64,000 nt of DNA, from positions 124,001-188,000 of the forward strand of contig NZ_CP014674.1 in the NCBI RefSeq assembly GCF_001787335.1, given 5' to 3'. This DNA comes from Kozakia baliensis. Its GTDB lineage: Bacteria; Pseudomonadota; Alphaproteobacteria; Acetobacterales; Acetobacteraceae. How positions within the stretch are numbered: position 1 is the first letter of the stretch; every line of letters begins with the position of its first letter. Below, piece after piece: positions 53,524 to 64,000 of this stretch. A program made the position numbers and the translations under genes. Below the pieces are notes generated by a model, which saw only the letters and a program-made list of their open reading frames with translations, had not been told where the DNA came from and ran no database searches.

Positions 53524-55833
53524 TTATGCCGTGGTCTTGTCGCCGTTCAGCGCGGCAAGCACGGTTTTCGGGCGGATCGGCAAATGGCGCATCCGCACGC
53601 CGACGGCATTGAAGATCGCGTTGCCGATTGCGGGTGCGATCACCGTCACGCCTGGCTCGCCCAGACCCATCGGCTTTTCCGTGCTTTCGACGAACTCGAT
53701 GTCCATCTCCGGCACATCGCCGATGCGCAGCGGTGTGTAGGTATCGAGGTTACGGTCCTTGATCGTGCCGTTGACCAGTTCCGTGCCTTCGAACAGCGCC
53801 ATGCTCAGGCCCCAAAGCGCCGCGCCTTCCGTTTGCGCCAAAGCGCCACCCGGATCGACGATCGTGCCCGCATCTACCAACAGCCACACCTTTTGGCAGG
53901 TGACGATGCCGGTCTTGCGGTCCACATGCACTTGGGCCGCGCCTGCCGTCCAAGTCGGCATGCCACGTTCCTGGCCGAAAGTCGTGGCCACACCCAGCGC
54001 CGTATCGGCCGGGAGCTGCGTTTTGCCCCAGCCGATCTTGTCGGCCAGACGTTGCAGCACCGCGGCCTGACGCTTCGCACCGCCGTTGGAATCCGGCGCT
54101 TCACCAGCGTTGCGGCCTTGTGCCGTCAGCATGGAGAGGCGAAACGCCACCGGGTCCTGCTTCAGTTCATGCGCGACTTCGTCCATGAACGATTCCAGCG
54201 CCCAAGGTGTCCAGCCCGAACTCACCGAGCGCAGCCAACCGGGACGGAAGGTGCGATTGGCCAGATCGTTGCTGATGGTGCGCAGTTGCGTCGGCCCGGT
54301 TTCATACCAATGATCCGCGCCTGCCGTGGCGAACTGATCGTAGGGCTTGTTATCGATGCCCTTGGACATGAACGCCGCCGCCATCACCTGCGTCGGCCAA
54401 CCTGCCGTCACGTCATACCGCATCCCCACGATCTTATCGTCGTTCAGCGCAACACGAATATTCTGCAAGGACGGTGAGCGGATCGAGTCGAATGCCATAT
54501 CGTCCGAACGCGTCAGAATCATCTTCACCGGCTTGCCGCCCAGCGCCTTGGAGGCGAGCGCGACGGGAACCGAGTAATCGCCGTTCAAGCGCCGTCCGAA
54601 GCCACCGCCCAGCAGATAAGTCCGCATGACGATCTGCTCTTTCGGCACCTGCAACGCTTCGGCCAACTGCGGCAGAACGAGAGATTGCCACTGGTTGCCG
54701 GTATGGATTTCCCATACGCCGTCAACCTGATGCGCGATCGCGTTCACCGGTTCGAGCTGATAATGCGCGACGGAAGCGCAAGTATAGCTGCGTTCCAGCG
54801 TTTTCGCGGGAGACTGGAACGTCTCCTTCGTGCCTTTATCGTCGAAGATGTAAACGCCGCCATCGGGCTTGGCGATGAGCTTGCGCCCATGCTCGATGAT
54901 CTCGGCTTCACTGACCGTCACCGTCTCGCCCGGTGTCCAGTTCACTTTCAGCGCGTCCGCCGCCTTGATCGCCGCCGGATAGGTCTTGGTGATGACCATC
55001 ACCCAGCCCGGCACGATGTTGGACGGGTCCTCCAGCACGACATAGCGCAGATAACCTGGAATTTTACGGGCTTCGCTGTCATCCACCGAAATGACCTTCG
55101 CGCCGTAACGCGTCGGCGGCATTTTCGGGCGGGCATACACCATGCCGTCGATCTTGGCGTCGATGCCGTAGATCGCGGCACCCGTCGTCTTGGCGGGGAT
55201 ATCCAGCGCCGCGACCTTTTTGCCGATCAAACGCCGCTCGCTGGCGGGTTTGAGCGGCAATTTCGCCATTTCTTCCGGCGTATATTGCTTGGTCGGCTTC
55301 GCCCGGGCGACGATATCGCCATAGGAGATGCTGCGGCCATTGGCTGTCACCATGCCGTTGCGCGCCGAGCACGCGCTCGGTGTGGCGCCGAGCAGTTTGG
55401 CGCCTTCCTCGATCATGATCGTACGCGCCGCCGCGCCCGCCTGGCGGAACACGTCCCACGTCATCCAGACCGACCACGAACCGCCGGTGACCATCAGGCC
55501 CCATTTCGGATCGGTATCGACCTGCGTGATCTTTACCTTGTCCCAGTCGGCTTCCATCTCATCGGCGATGATGCGCGCTAACGCGGTACCGACATGCTGG
55601 CCCATCTCCGCGCGGATGACGTTCACGTTCACCGTGCCGTCTGGGGCGATCGAACACCAGATGTTCGGCTCGAACATGCCGCCGCCCGGAAGATTGGACG
55701 GATAAACCTGGGAAGCGCTGGCAGGACGTGCGAAGCCGAAAGCCAGCCCCGCGCCCATTGTCGTCATCAAAAAGCCGCGGCGTGAAAGCGTTCGGCCTTC
55801 GCGCTCGGCGGATAATCGCTCTAATTTACCCAT
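53524..55833 (-). CDS. aldH: Molybdopterin-binding large subunit of membrane-bound aldehyde dehydrogenase
   Basis: Catalytic subunit of 769 residues, related to isoquinoline 1-oxidoreductase beta and the acetic-acid-bacterial AldH. A twin-arginine signal ([17 protein letters not shown]) marks export of the folded Mo-protein. Cofactor-binding segments include [11 protein letters not shown] and [25 protein letters not shown]; the catalytic Glu is Glu726 in GLGEPGV. It oxidises aldehyde to acid in the periplasm and passes electrons through the [2Fe-2S] and haem subunits. This family uses molybdopterin cytosine dinucleotide. Third gene of the operon, overlapping the second by 8 bp. Confidence 0.93.
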
Positions 55834-56305
55834 GGAGCGTCTCCCCGCCTGAAGCAGCTTCGGCCGCTTCCTTGATGGCTTTACGTATGCGGATATAGGT
55901 CATGCAGCGGCAGAGGCTCCCTCCCATCACACCGTCGATCTGCTCGTCGGTCGGATTGGGATAGTCCTTCAAAAGGCTTGCGGCCTGCATGATCTGGCCG
56001 GATTGGCAGTAGCCGCATTGCGGCACCTGCTGGTCGCGCCATGCAACTTGTACCGGGTGTGCGCCTTGCGGGTCCAGCCCTTCGATCGTCGTGATCGAAG
56101 CACCGTCGACGGAAGCCAGCGGCGTGATGCACGAACGCGTGGCGCGCCCGCCGACATGCACCGTGCACGCGCCGCATTCACCGATACCGCAGCCGAATTT
56201 GGTGCCGGTCAGGTTCAGGTCGTCGCGAAGCACCCACAACAGCGGTGTGTCATCCGGTGCGTCAACCGAAACCGGCTGACCATTGAGTTCGAATTTCGTT
56301 GTCAT
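55826..56305 (-). CDS. [2Fe-2S] small subunit of the molybdenum aldehyde dehydrogenase
   Basis: A 159-residue iron-sulfur protein with two cluster sites. The plant-type cluster uses Cys39, Cys44, Cys47 and Cys59 ([22 protein letters not shown]) and the second uses Cys97, Cys100, Cys132 and Cys134 (CGYC and LCRC). It carries electrons from the Mo centre to the haem subunit. It has no own signal; it is probably exported bound to the large subunit. Second of three genes, between the cytochrome and aldH. Confidence 0.94.
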
Positions 56306-56333: not shown

Positions 56334-57722
56334 TCAGTGCGAAGCATTGATCGGCGGGGTTTTCAGGGTGGCGCGCATCTGGGCGGCTTTCTTTTCCAGA
56401 TCGGTCCAGGGCGGCAGATTGGTGCGGGTGCGGCGCAGATAGGCGGCGATGCGCGCCATGTCGGCATCGGTCAACCCAGCGTAGAAGCTCGGCATCGCGA
56501 TCTGATCCTGGCCTTCCTTCGCGCCGATGCCATGCAGCATCACCATGAACAGATTGTTCGGTTCATCCAGCCAGAGCGCGTTGTTCAGCGCCAATTCCGG
56601 GCGACCCAGAACCGGGCCGGGGGCGGAATTGTAATGGCAGGCGGCGCAGGCGGCCTGATAGAGGCGCGCATCCGCGTCGTCAGTCTGCGGTCCGACCAAG
56701 TTTTTCTTGGAGCGCTCCATGGCCGTGGCGATCGCCGCCGTGTTCTGGCCTTGGCGCTGCTCGGCATGGTCGACATCGGCATAGTAATGCGCGATCGCCC
56801 GAACATCCGATTCCGGCAGCTTGGAGAGGAAGGAATGCGGGATCGGAGACATCGGTCCCGCCGCCGAACCGTGCAGCGGCGCTACGCCGAAGCGCAGGTA
56901 CTGGAACAATTCGTCCTCGGTCCAGACCACGGGCGTCGGGTTATGATCGTTCAATGGCGGTGCGATCCAGCCGTCAATGACGTTGCCGTCATAGGCATGG
57001 CTCAGCTTTTCGGCGCCCATGGCGTTACGTGGCGTATGACAAGCGCCGCAATGCGCGTCGCCTTCCGCCAGATATGCGCCGCGATTCCATTGTGCGTCGT
57101 GGTTCGGATCGTTCTTGTAACGCCCAGGCGAGAAGAACAGCAGCTTCCATGCAGCCTGACCGATGATGCGGATATTGACCGGGAACGGCACGGTATTGTC
57201 ACGCGGTTGCAGATGCACCGCCGGGCGGCTCATAAGATAAGCGTAAAGGTCCGAAACGTCCTGATCGCTGACTTTCGTAAAGTGATCGAACGGGAAGGCC
57301 GGGTAAAGCTGCGTGCCATCTCGTGCGATGCCCAAATTCATGGCGCGCTTGAAGGCGGCTTCCGACCAGTTGCCGATACCCGTTTCCGGATCGGGCGTGA
57401 TGTTCGACGAATAGATATTGCCGAACGGCGTTTCCATCTGGAAATCGCCCGCCATTTCTGGGCCTTTATGCCCATCCGTGCGCGTATGGCACTCCGCGCA
57501 ATATCCGGCGGCGGCCACGAGTTCGCCGCGCTTGACGGCTTCCGGCGAGAAGAAAGAAGCGGCGGGGCGGCTGATGGGGGCGATGGAAGGATACCACGCA
57601 TAGGCGAGGAACCCGGCGCCACCCACAACTCCTAGCCCGACGACTGCGGCGGCAATGCGCTTTGCTAGCGCGAACTTACCTGAATTTTTTTGAGAAGGAG
57701 CGATCGACATGCGCGCAGACAT
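56334..57722 (-). CDS. Triheme cytochrome c subunit of the aldehyde dehydrogenase
   Basis: A 462-residue membrane-anchored cytochrome. One N-terminal helix (IAAAVVGLGVVGGAGFLAYAW) is followed by three c-type haem sites: CAECH (75-79), CGACH (225-229) and CAACH (359-363). It accepts electrons from the FeS subunit and reduces ubiquinone, as in AldF-type subunits of acetic acid bacteria. The first ATG lacks a clear ribosome-binding site, and 57710 is an alternative. First gene of the three-gene operon. Confidence 0.93.
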   Translation of the reverse strand: MSARMSIAPSQKNSGKFALAKRIAAAVVGLGVVGGAGFLAYAWYPSIAPISRPAASFFSPEAVKRGELVAAAGYCAECHTRTDGHKGPEMAGDFQMETPFGNIYSSNITPDPETGIGNWSEAAFKRAMNLGIARDGTQLYPAFPFDHFTKVSDQDVSDLYAYLMSRPAVHLQPRDNTVPFPVNIRIIGQAAWKLLFFSPGRYKNDPNHDAQWNRGAYLAEGDAHCGACHTPRNAMGAEKLSHAYDGNVIDGWIAPPLNDHNPTPVVWTEDELFQYLRFGVAPLHGSAAGPMSPIPHSFLSKLPESDVRAIAHYYADVDHAEQRQGQNTAAIATAMERSKKNLVGPQTDDADARLYQAACAACHYNSAPGPVLGRPELALNNALWLDEPNNLFMVMLHGIGAKEGQDQIAMPSFYAGLTDADMARIAAYLRRTRTNLPPWTDLEKKAAQMRATLKTPPINASH

Positions 57723-57782: not shown

Positions 57783-57798
57783 GTAACGTTCTCGTTAC
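57783..57798. promoter_or_regulatory. Perfect inverted repeat upstream of the aldehyde dehydrogenase operon
   Basis: GTAACG, TTCT, CGTTAC, about 61 bp before the cytochrome start. It may be an operator for the TetR-containing regulator nearby; this is inference. Confidence 0.45.
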
Positions 57799-57877: not shown

Positions 57878-60061
57878 TTAGAAGTCGATTTCCATCGTGA
57901 AATGATAAGTGCGCGGTAGGCCCGCCACGGCGGAATTGGTCGCCGTTCCGGTGCCGCCGTTGATGGTGTTGGGGTAAACGGATGCCCAGTAGCTTTGGTT
58001 CGTCACATTATTCACGCCGAACCGGAAAACGATCGGCTCTTTGTAGACATGCGTCGCATAGCGCGCACCTAAATCTAACGTGACATAAGAACCTGCGAAG
58101 GTTTCGTTTTTCACGTCCGCCGCGCGGCGTGCCATGTAATGCACGCTTGCGTTCACCGCAGCTCCCTTGGCCCAAACAGGGTGGTAATCCAGTAGCACAT
58201 TGGCCTGGACCGGCGGCACGCCTACGACTTCCTTATGCGATGTCGAGGCGGTGCCGGTATTGCCGAGTTGCGCATCCATCCACGTCATGCCGCCCAAGAC
58301 ACTTAAGGAACGCGTGACGCTGCCTGCCGCCTGGAACTCGACGCCATAATTGCGCTGGTTGCCGAACGTGCCGAAAACATTGGTGGTCGGGTCGGTGTAG
58401 CCATAAGGGCGGCTCATGCGGAAACCCGCGACGTTCAACTGAAAGCCGTTGTCGAATTGGTATTTATACCCGACTTCGTATTCTTCCGAACGCAGTGGCG
58501 CGAGGGTCTCGTTGGCGTTTTTTACGCCGTCCGGCGCGGTCGGCCCGGCTTCGATGCTGCGGCCCCAGGTGAAATAAGCGCTTTGATTGCGCGTCGCCTT
58601 ATAGATCAGGCTCGTCATGGGGCTGAACGCCGCATTGCGCGCGTAGGAATCAGTTTTGACGTTGTTCTTGTTGTAATTATTGGTGCTGAGCCAACCCCAG
58701 GCGAGTGTACCCATGATTGCCCAATGGTCGCCCAACGAGATCGTATCGCCGGCAATTAGCGATTGCTCGGTGGTGACGGCGGATTTGTAATTGCCCGAGA
58801 AATAGGGCTGGCGGCCGGAAAATTTCGCCGGGTTGCCGAGGCTCGCATTGCCGAGCGTAAAGCTCTGCCCGACGGTCGGATTGTAATTCCCCATCGTGTA
58901 ACCGTTACTGCCGATCACGATCTCATGCTTGAGCGGGCCGGTATGAAAACGCCCGTTCAGGTAGGCGAGATTGCTCCCGACCTTAAAGTTCTTGGCCGTC
59001 GCCGCGGCGCTGATCGTGCTCGTGTAATCGCCTGCCGAGTTCAGCAATTGATTGCTGACGCTGAAGACCTGCCGATAGGCGTTTTGATAAAGGCCGCCGA
59101 GGGTGAGGGACCAATCATCGTTGAAATGATGAATGATCTTCGCCAGCGCCGTGTTGGTTTCCATATTGAAACCGGCATAAGGCTGACCGTAACCTTGCTT
59201 GCTCAGATCCGGCGCATTCGGCAACTGGATGCCCGTTTTATAAGTGAATTGCCCCGGATAACCGCGTTCCGCAAAGCTATATTGGCTGGCATCGATCTGA
59301 ATGACGGTTCGGGGCGAGAGATGAATATCGAAATCGCCGCTGACCATGTCGCGGCGCAAATGCGACCCGGCCACGAAGCTTTCGCCCTGCTGGTTAAGCA
59401 GATTGAGCCGATAGCCGAACCAGCCATGACGGCCCACGCGCCCCGAAACATCGAGGCTCTCCAACGGCGCGCCAATGGAATCCACACCGGCGACGAAACG
59501 TTCCGTCATGCGGTCGGTCGGGCGCTTGAGCGTGTAGCTGAATGTGCCCGCCGGATTTTGCGGCCCGTAAAGCGCCCCGGACAAGCCGTTGAGCACTTGC
59601 AGATTATCGAACTGCTCCGCCGCGTAAGGCGTGGTGATGACCATATTCAAGCCATCGATACGAGAGTTGGACACCACATCCGCTTCGAACCCGCGTGATT
59701 GCGGGCGAGACGTGTTCGGGTCGCCGCGTTCTTCCAACTGCACGGAGGGCATATATTGCGCGAGATCGTTGATATTGCGCGCCTGCTGGTTGGCGATGAC
59801 GTCCTGCGTGACGGTCATGATCGAAAATGGCGTATCGAGCGTGGGGCGATCGCCGAGCGGACCGAGAACCGCCGTTTTCTTGCTGTACTGCGCCGTGGTG
59901 CCGGTCGCGACACGCCTGTGAACGTTCACTTGTTCGACGGCGGGCGTTTTCGCCTTGGGCTTGGCAGGTTGGACCGATGTTTCCGCAGCATGCGCGGGAA
60001 GACTGAAGACTATCGATGCAGCGCTCGCCAACAAAACTTGTTCAGTCAGACGAAACCGCAT
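57878..60061 (-). CDS. TonB-dependent siderophore-type receptor
   Basis: Outer-membrane receptor of 727 residues. The signal peptide (LLASAASIVFSLPAHAA) is followed by a plug with TLDTPFSIMTVTQDVIANQQARNINDLAQYMP, SRGFEADV and NLQVLNGLSGALYGPQNPAGTFSYTLKRP. The barrel ends in TMEIDF. The position inside a molybdenum gene cluster is unusual, and the substrate could be a siderophore, a metal chelate or a cofactor. It is 201 bp downstream of the MocA-TetR fusion, whose gap contains a strong inverted repeat, and 155 bp upstream of the dehydrogenase operon. Confidence 0.88.
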   Translation of the reverse strand: MRFRLTEQVLLASAASIVFSLPAHAAETSVQPAKPKAKTPAVEQVNVHRRVATGTTAQYSKKTAVLGPLGDRPTLDTPFSIMTVTQDVIANQQARNINDLAQYMPSVQLEERGDPNTSRPQSRGFEADVVSNSRIDGLNMVITTPYAAEQFDNLQVLNGLSGALYGPQNPAGTFSYTLKRPTDRMTERFVAGVDSIGAPLESLDVSGRVGRHGWFGYRLNLLNQQGESFVAGSHLRRDMVSGDFDIHLSPRTVIQIDASQYSFAERGYPGQFTYKTGIQLPNAPDLSKQGYGQPYAGFNMETNTALAKIIHHFNDDWSLTLGGLYQNAYRQVFSVSNQLLNSAGDYTSTISAAATAKNFKVGSNLAYLNGRFHTGPLKHEIVIGSNGYTMGNYNPTVGQSFTLGNASLGNPAKFSGRQPYFSGNYKSAVTTEQSLIAGDTISLGDHWAIMGTLAWGWLSTNNYNKNNVKTDSYARNAAFSPMTSLIYKATRNQSAYFTWGRSIEAGPTAPDGVKNANETLAPLRSEEYEVGYKYQFDNGFQLNVAGFRMSRPYGYTDPTTNVFGTFGNQRNYGVEFQAAGSVTRSLSVLGGMTWMDAQLGNTGTASTSHKEVVGVPPVQANVLLDYHPVWAKGAAVNASVHYMARRAADVKNETFAGSYVTLDLGARYATHVYKEPIVFRFGVNNVTNQSYWASVYPNTINGGTGTATNSAVAGLPRTYHFTMEIDF

Positions 60062-60208
60062 CTTGCTTCTTGCTCCGTGGATCAGGGAAATTAATGCGGC
60101 GTTCCTGACGGATGCGGAATGGCTTGTCCACGCGGAAATTCGAGGGAAAGAGTGAAAATTTCTCGCGTAGATAGTATTAGATGACTGAAATAAAAAGAAT
60201 AAATTGGT

Positions 60209-60237
60209 GTGATTGTGACTTTGAATGTCATCATCAC
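60209..60237. promoter_or_regulatory. 29-bp near-perfect inverted repeat upstream of the TonB receptor
   Basis: GTGATTGTGAC, seven bases, GTCATCATCAC: nine of eleven base pairs match. A second repeat, TCACG-ATTC-CGTGA, follows at 60234-60247, and TCACG recurs at 60263. It lies in the gap between the fusion gene and the receptor gene and may be the binding site of the TetR half. Confidence 0.5.
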
Positions 60238-60262
60238 GATTCCGTGAATTTGTCTTTCTGTG

Positions 60263-61471
60263 TCACGATATCGCGGTTTCGGCAGTCTGTCCGAAGATCT
60301 TCCCGAAATCCTCACGCCTCTCTTTCTTCAACCATTCATCGAGAGCGCTGCGATAAAGTGCAATGCCGATGCGAGCTTTGAGCGTGGCGGTTTTCTGTCG
60401 GCTGCTCGTTTTGGGAAGGCGCTTCTCCAATCCCCTCGTGATGCCGCCTTCCCATTCCGCATATTTCGCCAATGCGGCGCCGCACAGCGCTTGGGACGTT
60501 TTGATCAAGCTTATGAAATCGAGCTTCTCTTGTTCCTGCAAGACGGCCTGACGCATCATGCGTTCGAAGGCTTGGCGCAGGGCCTGATCCGGCGTGAGAT
60601 CGTCCGGTGCATTTTCGATGGAGGTTTGCAAAAAATCGGTCATCTCGCTCATCCATGCGAGAACGATATCGCTCTTGGTGGTGAAATGGCGGAAAAACGT
60701 GCGCGTTGAAATGCCTGCGGCGGCGGCGATGTCTTCCACCGTCGTTTCATCGTAACTGCGATCGGCGAAAAGATGTGCCGCTTGAGCGATGACGGTTTCG
60801 CGGATGCGAGATTGCTTGAGTTCACGAACGCCAAGGGCTGGTTTCTCCTGCGCCTCGTCGCTGAGTGTCGGTTTCTCCAAACGTCGTCCATCGATCCAGC
60901 GGCGGCGGATCGCCATGGCCAGTTGGTCTGGCGTATCGAGATCGAAGGCCAGTTCAGGCGCATCGACAAAGAGCAATCGTTCGGGATGTTGCCGCCAAAG
61001 CTGGCCGAAACCGCGATCGCCGCGCAATGCGCTGGCCAAGCGCATGGTCTTGGCCGTCACCAAAGCGGGGATACCGAAATTTTCCGCATCGTAACGGCTG
61101 ACGACGTCGTGGTGATGATCCTGGGCTTTGAGAAGCGCTTGAAGATGCGCGAATTTAAGGCGGCACTGGTCCACGCCGCTGATGAGTGTCGGTCCGTCAT
61201 GATCGCGCAGCGCAGAGGCGACCGCACGCACGGAGGTCGATAAGCCTTCTCGCCAATCCGGGTTTTGAATGAGGCGTATGGGCAAATCGGCAAGATGAGC
61301 CGAAACGGCGGGCTGGCTGACGACGACGTAAAGCCTGGCCGGCTTGGTTCTGAGCAAGAGCTGCGCCATCCGCCGCACCAGCGGCTCGCCTTGTATGGTC
61401 AGTTCCTGTTTCGACTGCCCCAGCCGCGAGCTTCCACCTGCCGCCAGCAGCACGGCCACATGTGCGCTCAT
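60263..61471 (-). CDS. Fusion of a MocA-like nucleotidyltransferase and a TetR-family regulator
   Basis: One 402-residue chain. Residues 5-190 are a MobA/MocA-like nucleotidyltransferase: LLAAGGSSRLGQSKQEL is the CTP/GTP loop, GVDQCRL (Asp101, Gln102) and DLDTPDQL are the metal and substrate aspartates. Residues 217-402 are a TetR regulator, with helix-turn-helix TTVEDIAAAAGISTRTFFRHF at 243-263 and an all-alpha C-terminal domain. I followed the frame base by base across the junction near 60880 and found no stop. It sits upstream of a Mo aldehyde dehydrogenase. An MCD-cofactor-making regulator is inferred. Confidence 0.85.
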   Translation of the reverse strand: MSAHVAVLLAAGGSSRLGQSKQELTIQGEPLVRRMAQLLLRTKPARLYVVVSQPAVSAHLADLPIRLIQNPDWREGLSTSVRAVASALRDHDGPTLISGVDQCRLKFAHLQALLKAQDHHHDVVSRYDAENFGIPALVTAKTMRLASALRGDRGFGQLWRQHPERLLFVDAPELAFDLDTPDQLAMAIRRRWIDGRRLEKPTLSDEAQEKPALGVRELKQSRIRETVIAQAAHLFADRSYDETTVEDIAAAAGISTRTFFRHFTTKSDIVLAWMSEMTDFLQTSIENAPDDLTPDQALRQAFERMMRQAVLQEQEKLDFISLIKTSQALCGAALAKYAEWEGGITRGLEKRLPKTSSRQKTATLKARIGIALYRSALDEWLKKERREDFGKIFGQTAETAIS

Positions 61472-61490
61472 TCGTTTCGTCTCTCGCGCT

Positions 61491-61769
61491 TTAATTGGAG
61501 GAATTGGTTTTGCGGCCGGTGGTTTTGCCCGTCCATAACCAAAGGATCAGGCATGGCACGAAGAAGTAAAGCGCCACGGCGACGATCAGCACGCGCAGGA
61601 GATAAGACAGATCGGTGTGAAGAAAGAGGCGGCAGATGAGATTGGCCAACCCCAACATGAGCGCGACGCAAATAAACCCGCCGAGATTGACGAGGAGGCT
61701 GCGTCCGTCATTCACCTGTTCGATCGGCGCGATGAAGGCGGGTATTTTTTCATTGGGCGTCTTTGTCAT
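61491..61769 (-). CDS. Small membrane protein of unknown function
   Basis: A 92-residue protein with two predicted membrane helices (GGFICVALMLGLANLICRLFL and LLRVLIVAVALYFFVPCLILWLW) and a charged C-terminus. I do not recognise a family. It starts the minus-strand run and ends 19 bp before the MocA-TetR fusion, so the two may be co-transcribed. A role in molybdate handling is only suggested by position. Confidence 0.6.
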   Translation of the reverse strand: MTKTPNEKIPAFIAPIEQVNDGRSLLVNLGGFICVALMLGLANLICRLFLHTDLSYLLRVLIVAVALYFFVPCLILWLWTGKTTGRKTNSSN

Positions 61770-61894
61770 CGTGCGGTGTCCGTCATTAATAAACCTCCAT
61801 CCGTGCCTAAACGAGCATGAGATGGCGTATAGAAACGACCGTCATAGGACTTGTGGTGGCAATCGTCACGAAAACAGAAGGCAAGGAACGTGTC

Positions 61895-62101
61895 ATGAAA
61901 CTAAGCGCACGTAACCAATTGAAGGGCCGGATTGTCGAAATCGTCAAAGGCGCGACGACGTCCCATGTGAGGATCGACGTGAACGGCGCGGTCATTACCA
62001 GCGCGATCACCAACGAATCCGTGGCCGATCTCCAACTCGAAGTCGGTAAAACGGCCTATGCCGTCATCAAGGCTTCCAGCGTGATGGTGGGCGTGGACTA
62101 A
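61895..62101 (+). CDS. mop: Molybdenum-pterin-binding protein (Mop, molbindin)
   Basis: A single TOBE/Mop domain of 68 residues: MKLSARNQLKGRIVEIVKGATTSHVRIDVNG, then ITNESVADLQLEVGKTAYAVIKASSVMVGV, the full family pattern. Molbindins form hexamers that bind several molybdate ions and act as a cytosolic store. The ATG at 61895 has AAGGAA eight bases upstream; the longer frame from 61817 has no support. It is divergent from the small membrane protein and the fusion, placing Mo storage beside Mo-cofactor and Mo-enzyme genes. Confidence 0.92.
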   Translation: MKLSARNQLKGRIVEIVKGATTSHVRIDVNGAVITSAITNESVADLQLEVGKTAYAVIKASSVMVGVD

Positions 62102-62113
62102 CCACGCGCGGCA

Positions 62114-63502
62114 TTACAATTCCGCACCGCTCGGGGAGAAGCCGAAGGACGCCAAGGCGAGTTCCGGAGCGGTTTCATGGCGCAGCAGGGCCGGGAGAGC
62201 CGGAAGAAGGCTCAAAGCCGGATCGCGCGCATAAAGGGTGTCGATTTTCTCTTCGCGCAGTCGCACCCAATACCAGATGTCGCCATGCGCGCCTTCCACC
62301 GCGCCGAAACCCTCCCCACTCCCGACGGGCGGCATGGGCGGGGCGGGAAGCTCCGCCGCGAAACCCGCGCCGATCCGTTCGATCCGGCGTAGGGAATCCC
62401 GAATTTCCGCCAGTCGGAGGCGCTCTCGCGCCCAGGCGTCTCCGGCAAGTAGCGATCCGGCGCGACCGGGAACATGGCGCATATCGTCCTCATGCTGGCG
62501 GAGATCGAACGACCGCCCCGAAGCACGGCCCGTTAGCCCGCCGATGGAGAGCGCTTCGATTTGGCTTAGGCTGATCAGGCCGATCCGCCGAAGATTTTCA
62601 CTGAATTGTCGATGCAGCTTATCGAGCAGCGGCAGGCGCGGCATGAGCGCGGTATAGGCGGCTTGGGCCAGGGGTGGCGCTTCGATTCCTGGGGCGATGC
62701 CTTCGGGCGTGATGCTGTCGAGCAGACGCCTGGACGCCCCATGGCGCAGGCATAGCTCAGCAAGAAGATCTTCCGCCAGTTCCGCATGAGTGGCGAGAAG
62801 CCCGGCCCCGGTGAGGCGCGCCGTGGCGGCGATATCGCGCAGATGCACGCTGATCCGCTCGATTTCCGAAAGGATACTGCGCCCGTCTCGTGCGGCGGCG
62901 GTCGGGCGAACGCCGACGGCTTGCTCGATGGCGCGGGAATAAGCCAAAGCATGCGCGACGAAACCGCTGGCCGTGGCGCGCCCGACGAAGCGCAGCGCCT
63001 CCTCAGGCTTCAGGCCGTGCATGTTCTGCAACAGGCCCCGATGAGAAAAGCCGAGTTTGAGGGTAGGGCCGTTGAGCGCGAATGGCCCGGTGCGATCGCG
63101 GAACGGCTCATCCTCCGCGCGTAAGGGTGGTGGCGCGGCACCTGGGCCGGAGCGGGACGACCACGGCCAGCCGCGCGTCCAAAATCCGTGATCCAGCGCT
63201 GGGTCCGTGTCTGCGGCATCCAGCGGCTGCGTGCCCCATAGATCCTGCGCGATGCGTTCGGGCCAGGAGGCCGCGGGGAGACGAGAGGACAACGCGAAAT
63301 AGCGTTTTTGCGAAAGCGCCGTACTGGCCAGAAGCGGGCGCTCGCGCTCCAGAAACAGCGCGTAGGCGCGACGGTCGTCACACCAATGGGCGATGAACCA
63401 CAGCGGCGCGGCATCGATCATGGCGCGCCATTGAGCCTCGTCGAGTTCGTAATGCGCGGGCGCCACGCGTTCGCCCGTGCGGATGATGTCGGCCATGCTC
63501 AT
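62114..63502 (-). CDS. NuoD/HycE-like large subunit lacking Ni-binding cysteines
   Basis: A 462-residue protein related to complex I 49-kDa and group 4 hydrogenase large subunits. Residues 60-105 resemble the NuoC segment (SRLPAASWPERIAQDLWG); residues 150-230 contain LGFSHRGLLQNMHGL and VAHALAYSRAIEQAVGVRPTAAARDGRSILSEIERISVHL. The CxxC pairs that hold NiFe are absent, so it is not a working hydrogenase; an ion-pumping or hydrogenase-related complex is inferred. The start at 63502 (ATGA overlap with the upstream gene) is used instead of 63616, which would overlap by 118 bp. Confidence 0.75.
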   Translation of the reverse strand: MSMADIIRTGERVAPAHYELDEAQWRAMIDAAPLWFIAHWCDDRRAYALFLERERPLLASTALSQKRYFALSSRLPAASWPERIAQDLWGTQPLDAADTDPALDHGFWTRGWPWSSRSGPGAAPPPLRAEDEPFRDRTGPFALNGPTLKLGFSHRGLLQNMHGLKPEEALRFVGRATASGFVAHALAYSRAIEQAVGVRPTAAARDGRSILSEIERISVHLRDIAATARLTGAGLLATHAELAEDLLAELCLRHGASRRLLDSITPEGIAPGIEAPPLAQAAYTALMPRLPLLDKLHRQFSENLRRIGLISLSQIEALSIGGLTGRASGRSFDLRQHEDDMRHVPGRAGSLLAGDAWARERLRLAEIRDSLRRIERIGAGFAAELPAPPMPPVGSGEGFGAVEGAHGDIWYWVRLREEKIDTLYARDPALSLLPALPALLRHETAPELALASFGFSPSGAEL

Positions 63503-64000
63503 GAGGGACGCCACGCCAGGGACCAAGGAAGAAGCATCAGCAGAGGGCTGCTTAGCCCCAATGCCAACAGCAACCAGAGCGCGGCATCCTGCCGCCATGC
63601 CAAAAGAGTGGGCCAACGCATTTCGGTGCGGGCCGCCTGAATGGCGAGTGCGGCCAACACCGCCAATCCGACGAAAGGATGCGGCATAAGCAATACGCTG
63701 AGCAACAGAAGGGAAGCCGTGAAATGAGGATAGGGCGGCAAGCTGGAGGATGCCCAGCGGGCGGAACGCTCCGTCATTTCACCACTGCAAATCGCTAATC
63801 CGCCCGTCATGAATAGCAAGGCCGGAAGCACCGCGCCACCTTGCGCCGCGCAAAGCGTGGCCAGGGCGGCATGAAGACGCGGGCCGCATTGCCGCGCCAG
63901 CACGGCCAGCCATAATGTTCCCAACCCGGCCAGGAGGAACACCATATGCGTCACGTCCCGGTCCGGCAGGCGCAGCATCAACGCGAGCGCGCCGATCCGC
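63499..64000 (-). CDS. C-terminal part of a membrane protein, probably a HyfF/NuoN-like subunit
   Basis: The frame is open to the window edge, with at least 167 residues visible. It is hydrophobic, with segments MVFLLAGLGTLWLAVLA, GAVLPALLFMTGGLAI, FTASLLLLSVLLMPHPFVGLAVLAALA and ALWLLLALGLSSPLLMLLPW. The DVTHMVFLLAGLG and AVLPALLFMTGGLAI segments recall the membrane antiporter-like subunits of complex I and hydrogenase-4. It ends with ATGA overlapping the NuoD/HycE-like gene, and in hyf operons the F subunit precedes the G subunit. Identity is tentative. Confidence 0.55.
   Translation of the reverse strand, partial: RIGALALMLRLPDRDVTHMVFLLAGLGTLWLAVLARQCGPRLHAALATLCAAQGGAVLPALLFMTGGLAICSGEMTERSARWASSSLPPYPHFTASLLLLSVLLMPHPFVGLAVLAALAIQAARTEMRWPTLLAWRQDAALWLLLALGLSSPLLMLLPWSLAWRPS

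Follow-up and report, generated by a model that had tools for sequence, protein, structure and literature searches.

The question raised by this locus is whether one gene joins a molybdenum-cofactor enzyme to a transcriptional regulator and, if so, what the two halves would do together. In the window, that is, the whole stretch of 64,000 nucleotides analysed, the gene was read as a 402-codon frame on the minus strand with an ATG start and no internal stop (Table 1), so the initial annotation of one continuous frame without a frameshift at the junction holds. Enzyme-type and DNA-binding domains are combined in this chain, NTP_transf_3 scoring 91.6 bits against a Pfam cut-off of 27 and TetR_N 55.4 bits against a cut-off of 24. 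Within codons 190–240 the sole start-like codon was a TTG (codon 198), which no Shine-Dalgarno sequence precedes. No internal start at the junction was conserved in the other four fusions described below, on which ground separate translation of the TetR half was rejected.

Table 1. Features of the fusion gene and its surroundings (window positions).
Feature	Coordinates	Strand	Basis and remarks
Fusion gene, MocA-type nucleotidyltransferase + TetR regulator, 402 aa	60263..61471	-	ORF and Pfam domains
NTP_transf_3 (MocA/MobA-like), residues 6-162	60986..61456	-	Pfam E=7.7e-26, Foldseek
Nucleotide loop LLAAGGSSRLGQSKQEL, about residues 8-24	61400..61450	-	Intact in this and three other fusions
D101-Q-C-R motif (presumed metal-binding Asp retained; Cys where DQP has Pro)	61160..61171	-	Alignment
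Low-confidence linker, about residues 174-218	60818..60952	-	pLDDT below 50
TetR_N helix-turn-helix, residues 228-272	60656..60790	-	Pfam E=5.3e-15
TetR C-terminal dimerisation/ligand domain, MftR-like	60278..60655	-	TetR_C_14 E 1.6e-4, just under cut-off; Foldseek
Candidate operator GTGATGATGACATTCAAAGTCACAATCAC between fusion gene and TonB receptor gene	60209..60237		Palindrome
TonB-dependent (siderophore-type) receptor, presumed target	57878..60061	-	Pfam/NCBIfam; adjoins fusion in 4/5 genomes
Cytochrome c subunit of Mo aldehyde dehydrogenase	56334..57722	-	Pfam
2Fe-2S subunit of Mo aldehyde dehydrogenase	55826..56305	-	Pfam/NCBIfam
Molybdenum cofactor-binding subunit of Mo aldehyde dehydrogenase	53524..55833	-	Pfam/NCBIfam
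Mop/TOBE molybdate-binding protein	61817..62101	+	Pfam/NCBIfam; near fusion also in Brytella and G024

A sample of 397 genomes of the family (acetic acid bacteria) yielded full-length matches at 44–53% identity in four genera besides that of the window genome (G000), namely in Brytella acorum LMG 32668, Tanticharoenia sakaeratensis NBRC 103193, Acidomonas methanolica DSM 5432 and genome G024. Both Pfam domains passed their cut-offs in all the fusion proteins, and the search for NTP_transf_3 followed by TetR_N that had been suggested at the outset thus recovered this order in four further genera; the MocA-TetR fusion is real, and at least five genera of acetic acid bacteria have it. Since these four independent genomes carry the same fusion with both domains above threshold, the chance that two genes were joined through an error of sequencing or assembly is practically nil. 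Scans of public contigs gave no match with a single-protein query and three fusions with an alignment query. Sampling at the level of the class (385 genomes) and of the phylum (398 genomes, overlapping in part with the former) gave no fusion outside the family, and no plasmid record covered 80% of the fusion query.

The first half of the chain gave Foldseek matches to 3d5n, Rv0371c and IspD. The MocA equivalog TIGR03310 (NCBIfam) scored 86.6 against a cut-off of 186.45, and a stand-alone relative likewise fell under it (103). The P-loop Lys, the presumed metal-binding Asp (D101) and DLDTP (D-x-DTP) are all present in the window protein, so the earlier description of the nucleotide loop and acidic residues as intact was borne out for these residues; it did not extend to the replacement of DQP by DQC, to the Gly in place of Arg after GDxGF (G-F/L-R motif), or to one loop that is three residues shorter. 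All three changes are common to the five fusions (DQC in 5/5, versus DQP in nearly all stand-alone relatives), and with such shared changes near the active site the activity or specificity may differ. From these residues the window NTase half is likely to be active, with altered specificity being possible.

All four genomes with the Mo aldehyde dehydrogenase retain the nucleotide loop, D101 and DLDTP in their fusion. Among the five fusions only that of Acidomonas has a degenerate P-loop (LAAGGGARLDRPEHAS; Lys to Glu, Gln to His) and has lost the DTP, its frame still being open over 441 codons. These features, together with the active-site changes common to all fusions, would suit an NTase half that is no longer an enzyme and was captured as a ligand-sensing domain for the repressor; the intact P-loop and acidic residues of the other four genomes make this improbable, as does the window genome, which has an XO-family Mo enzyme, yet no other MocA-type gene was found in it. 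The fusion is the only MocA-type member of its 10 NTP_transf_3 matches, the two others of Moco type being MobA-like. The window genome has two nearly identical MobA-like genes (L147:7351-7977 and L148:6462-7088), one of which, on contig C2, has an FdhF/YdeP-type oxidoreductase gene and transposases as neighbours.

Bacterial XO-family enzymes bind Mo-MPT or molybdopterin cytosine dinucleotide (MCD), MocA makes MCD, and in described operons mocA genes lie beside xdhC (PMC2997495). By its family membership the window Mo enzyme would use MCD. No mocA was found beside xdhC in G000, Brytella and G024, though xdhC is present in all three. The fused NTase half is probably the cell's only MocA-type cytidylyltransferase, and it is somewhat more likely than not that it makes MCD.

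The neighbouring dehydrogenase genes were confirmed with Pfam and NCBIfam, in agreement with the initial annotation, which had placed the fusion beside a Mo aldehyde dehydrogenase. In G000, Brytella and G024 the genes follow one order, Mop protein first, then fusion, TonB receptor, cytochrome c, 2Fe-2S and Mo subunit, and in these three genomes the Mo aldehyde dehydrogenase genes adjoin the fusion. Brytella and G024 have the cofactor cluster on the opposite flank of the fusion; that of the window genome starts some 10 kb past the Mop gene. In Tanticharoenia the fusion and the receptor are kept together, the Mo enzyme is elsewhere, and moeA, moaA and mobA are found about 20 kb from the fusion on the same contig. 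The Acidomonas fusion stands alone: no ortholog of the Mo subunit was found in this genome (best match 32%), and another MocA gene lies beside xdhC. Mo-related neighbours had been expected in other genomes carrying the fusion: Mo cofactor genes adjoin it in other genera, and in Acidomonas it has no Mo neighbours.

Directly upstream of the fusion gene, positions 61491-61769 (minus strand) encode a 92-aa predicted membrane protein with no Pfam or NCBIfam match, and no homologue of it was found in the other neighbourhoods. Farther out, at 62114-63616 (minus strand) and beyond (L198:115-5447), a Complex I 49-kDa-like protein is followed by several membrane proteins resembling NADH-dehydrogenase or hydrogenase-4 type subunits. 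On a Xanthomonas sacchari plasmid (L211:8018-16640) a TonB receptor gene is the immediate neighbour of xdhC, a MocA-like gene and genes for Mo hydroxylase subunits, so that the proximity of such a receptor to a Mo hydroxylase is not confined to acetic acid bacteria.

Split versions of the two halves occur in the same family. In the tree the five fused NTase halves formed one clade (support 100/100) joined to the xdhC-linked, stand-alone MocA of the type found in genus g78. There the MocA-type protein has about 195 aa, its gene overlaps or abuts xdhC directly after it, and the surrounding cofactor cluster comprises moeA, moaA, moaC, mobA and moaE; a mocA-xdhC cluster was also found in a small-genome relative (G093). 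The TonB receptor gene of g78 has a separate, convergent tetR gene as its neighbour in 7/7 genomes where the tetR region was read. Five other genera carry the TetR gene only, which where read does not adjoin the receptor gene, and their MocA, where read, is of a more distant type.

The C-terminal half was modelled with the all-helical TetR fold, with Foldseek matches to SCO3201 and M. tuberculosis MftR, and the MftR equivalog TIGR03968 scored 90.3 against a cut-off of 224.9. The fused TetR half shares only 35–37% identity with the separate TetR proteins whose genes converge on the same receptor gene, and a single origin of the fused TetR halves was weakly supported in the tree (62/47) and not rejected. 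Besides the fusion, Tanticharoenia has another TetR, which stands alone and is of the split type (L072:6252-7028; 58% identity to the g78 TetR).

Two binding sites had been predicted in the window. The one at 60209-60247 contains the candidate operator 60209-60237; the other, at 57783-57798, was abandoned, being only a near-palindrome for which inspection of the same gap in Brytella and G024 gave no counterpart. Brytella, G024 and Tanticharoenia each have a single genomic copy of GTGYCN4TCACN6GTGAN4GGCAC, located in all three cases in the gap from the fusion to the TonB receptor gene; there these genomes carry GTGYCNNNNTCACNNNNNNGTGANNNNGGCAC, with one copy per genome at up to three mismatches. 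As this shared motif was derived from the three fusion-receptor gaps, its presence there is by construction, unlike its uniqueness per genome and the Tanticharoenia copy, a perfect 32-bp palindrome. At up to three mismatches the motif is absent from the G000 and Acidomonas genomes. The window's own palindrome does not match it; this site lies in the same place as the shared one, is the only copy in the window genome at up to 2 mismatches, and has a symmetry that is not significant alone (P 0.07 to 0.29). Symmetry was rejected as the sole evidence for an operator, its significance being clear only in Tanticharoenia and marginal in a few split genomes. The recognition helix of the window TetR half reads STRTFFRHF versus SRRTLFRYF, and this difference would fit a changed operator site. 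In genus g78 inverted repeats of the GTGCCA/TGGCAC type were seen about 60 bases before the TonB receptor start in several upstream regions. No sigma-70-like promoter was found within 60000-62200. Repression of the receptor gene by the TetR half from this site is quite probable, and this gene is a more consistent target than the Mo enzyme because the Tanticharoenia fusion keeps the receptor as its neighbour and not the Mo enzyme.

The reading that we favour, with a probability of about one half, is that the protein combines a working cytidylyltransferase with a local repressor of the receptor, and perhaps also of the Mo-enzyme operon. The N-terminal MocA-type CTP:molybdopterin cytidylyltransferase would supply MCD to the aldehyde dehydrogenase encoded downstream, and the C-terminal TetR repressor would keep the receptor off by binding the intergenic palindrome ahead of the TonB receptor gene; through read-through the Mo-enzyme operon would perhaps be kept off as well. 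In the most speculative step, DNA binding would change when the NTase half carries its substrate or product, so that cofactor supply would set receptor expression. Catalysis, DNA binding, repression and sensing are all inferred for the window fusion. Counted in favour of this explanation were the presence of the fusion in five genera, the NTase clade, the synteny, the places of mocA and tetR in the split genus, xdhC without mocA, the lack of another MocA-type NTase among the G000 matches, the motifs kept wherever the Mo aldehyde dehydrogenase is present, and the operator-like site of three genomes; counted against it were the shared active-site changes, the MocA score below its cut-off, the mismatch and symmetry of the window site, the low TetR identity, the weak single origin of the TetR halves and the lack of a sigma-70-like promoter.

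The alternative that fares best is that one chain holds two independent functions with no allosteric coupling, the fusion merely co-expressing a cytidylyltransferase and a repressor of the TonB receptor. An AlphaFold2 model of the fusion (four sequences) gave two folded halves (mean pLDDT 75.6) with a pTM of 0.47 and a predicted disordered linker of about 45 residues, which would suit such independence. The halves also change independently, the TetR half being very diverged and the NTase half conserved in Tanticharoenia, and the reverse being found in Acidomonas. We regard this alternative as unlikely, although less so than the captured sensor, since five genera have kept the two frames fused at the identities given above, and the halves belong to neighbouring functions where they are split. 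On the preferred reading of an enzyme tied to a repressor, an effect of active-site occupancy on DNA binding is a tentative proposal, and from the gene context alone molybdopterin status may be coupled to transcription. The fullest version, in which the last enzyme of MCD synthesis itself represses the outer-membrane receptor, perhaps also the Mo enzyme, substrate or product occupancy releases the DNA, and the receptor is part of Mo nutrition, is doubtful.

The fusion resembles MocA (TIGR03310) in domain fold, nucleotide loop and presumed metal-binding Asp, and the stand-alone relatives of its NTase half adjoin xdhC as in described operons (PMC2997495); it differs in the sub-equivalog score and active-site changes given above, in carrying a TetR half and in not lying beside xdhC. 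MftR-type TetR proteins (TIGR03968, TetR_C_14) are the closest named family to the other half and share TetR_N and the fold, whereas the fusion scores far below the cut-off, is fused behind an enzyme and was seen in no mycofactocin context. ModE, the molybdate-responsive regulator, combines an HTH with Mop/TOBE; Mo-related regulation would be common to both, but here Mop is a separate gene near the fusion. In NadR, and in BirA (PMC6391492), a cofactor-metabolism enzyme and a DNA-binding repressor form one chain. With these enzyme-repressor proteins NAD and biotin supply, respectively, set expression. The window fusion likewise joins an enzyme-type domain to a DNA-binding one, and differs from both in DNA-binding domain, enzyme and cofactor, and in that its coupling is a proposal. 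The MocA-TetR pair would be an addition to such proteins, and a search confined to open-licence PMC papers found no earlier description of a MocA-TetR fusion.

One protein may thus physically tie the supply of cofactor to the control of genes. The split and fused versions in one family, together with the degenerate P-loop of Acidomonas, constitute a natural experiment on the role of each half. Should the coupling be real, the fusion would sense molybdenum-cofactor synthesis directly by way of an enzyme, much as BirA does for biotin and NadR for NAD, and a TonB receptor would be implicated in molybdenum nutrition.
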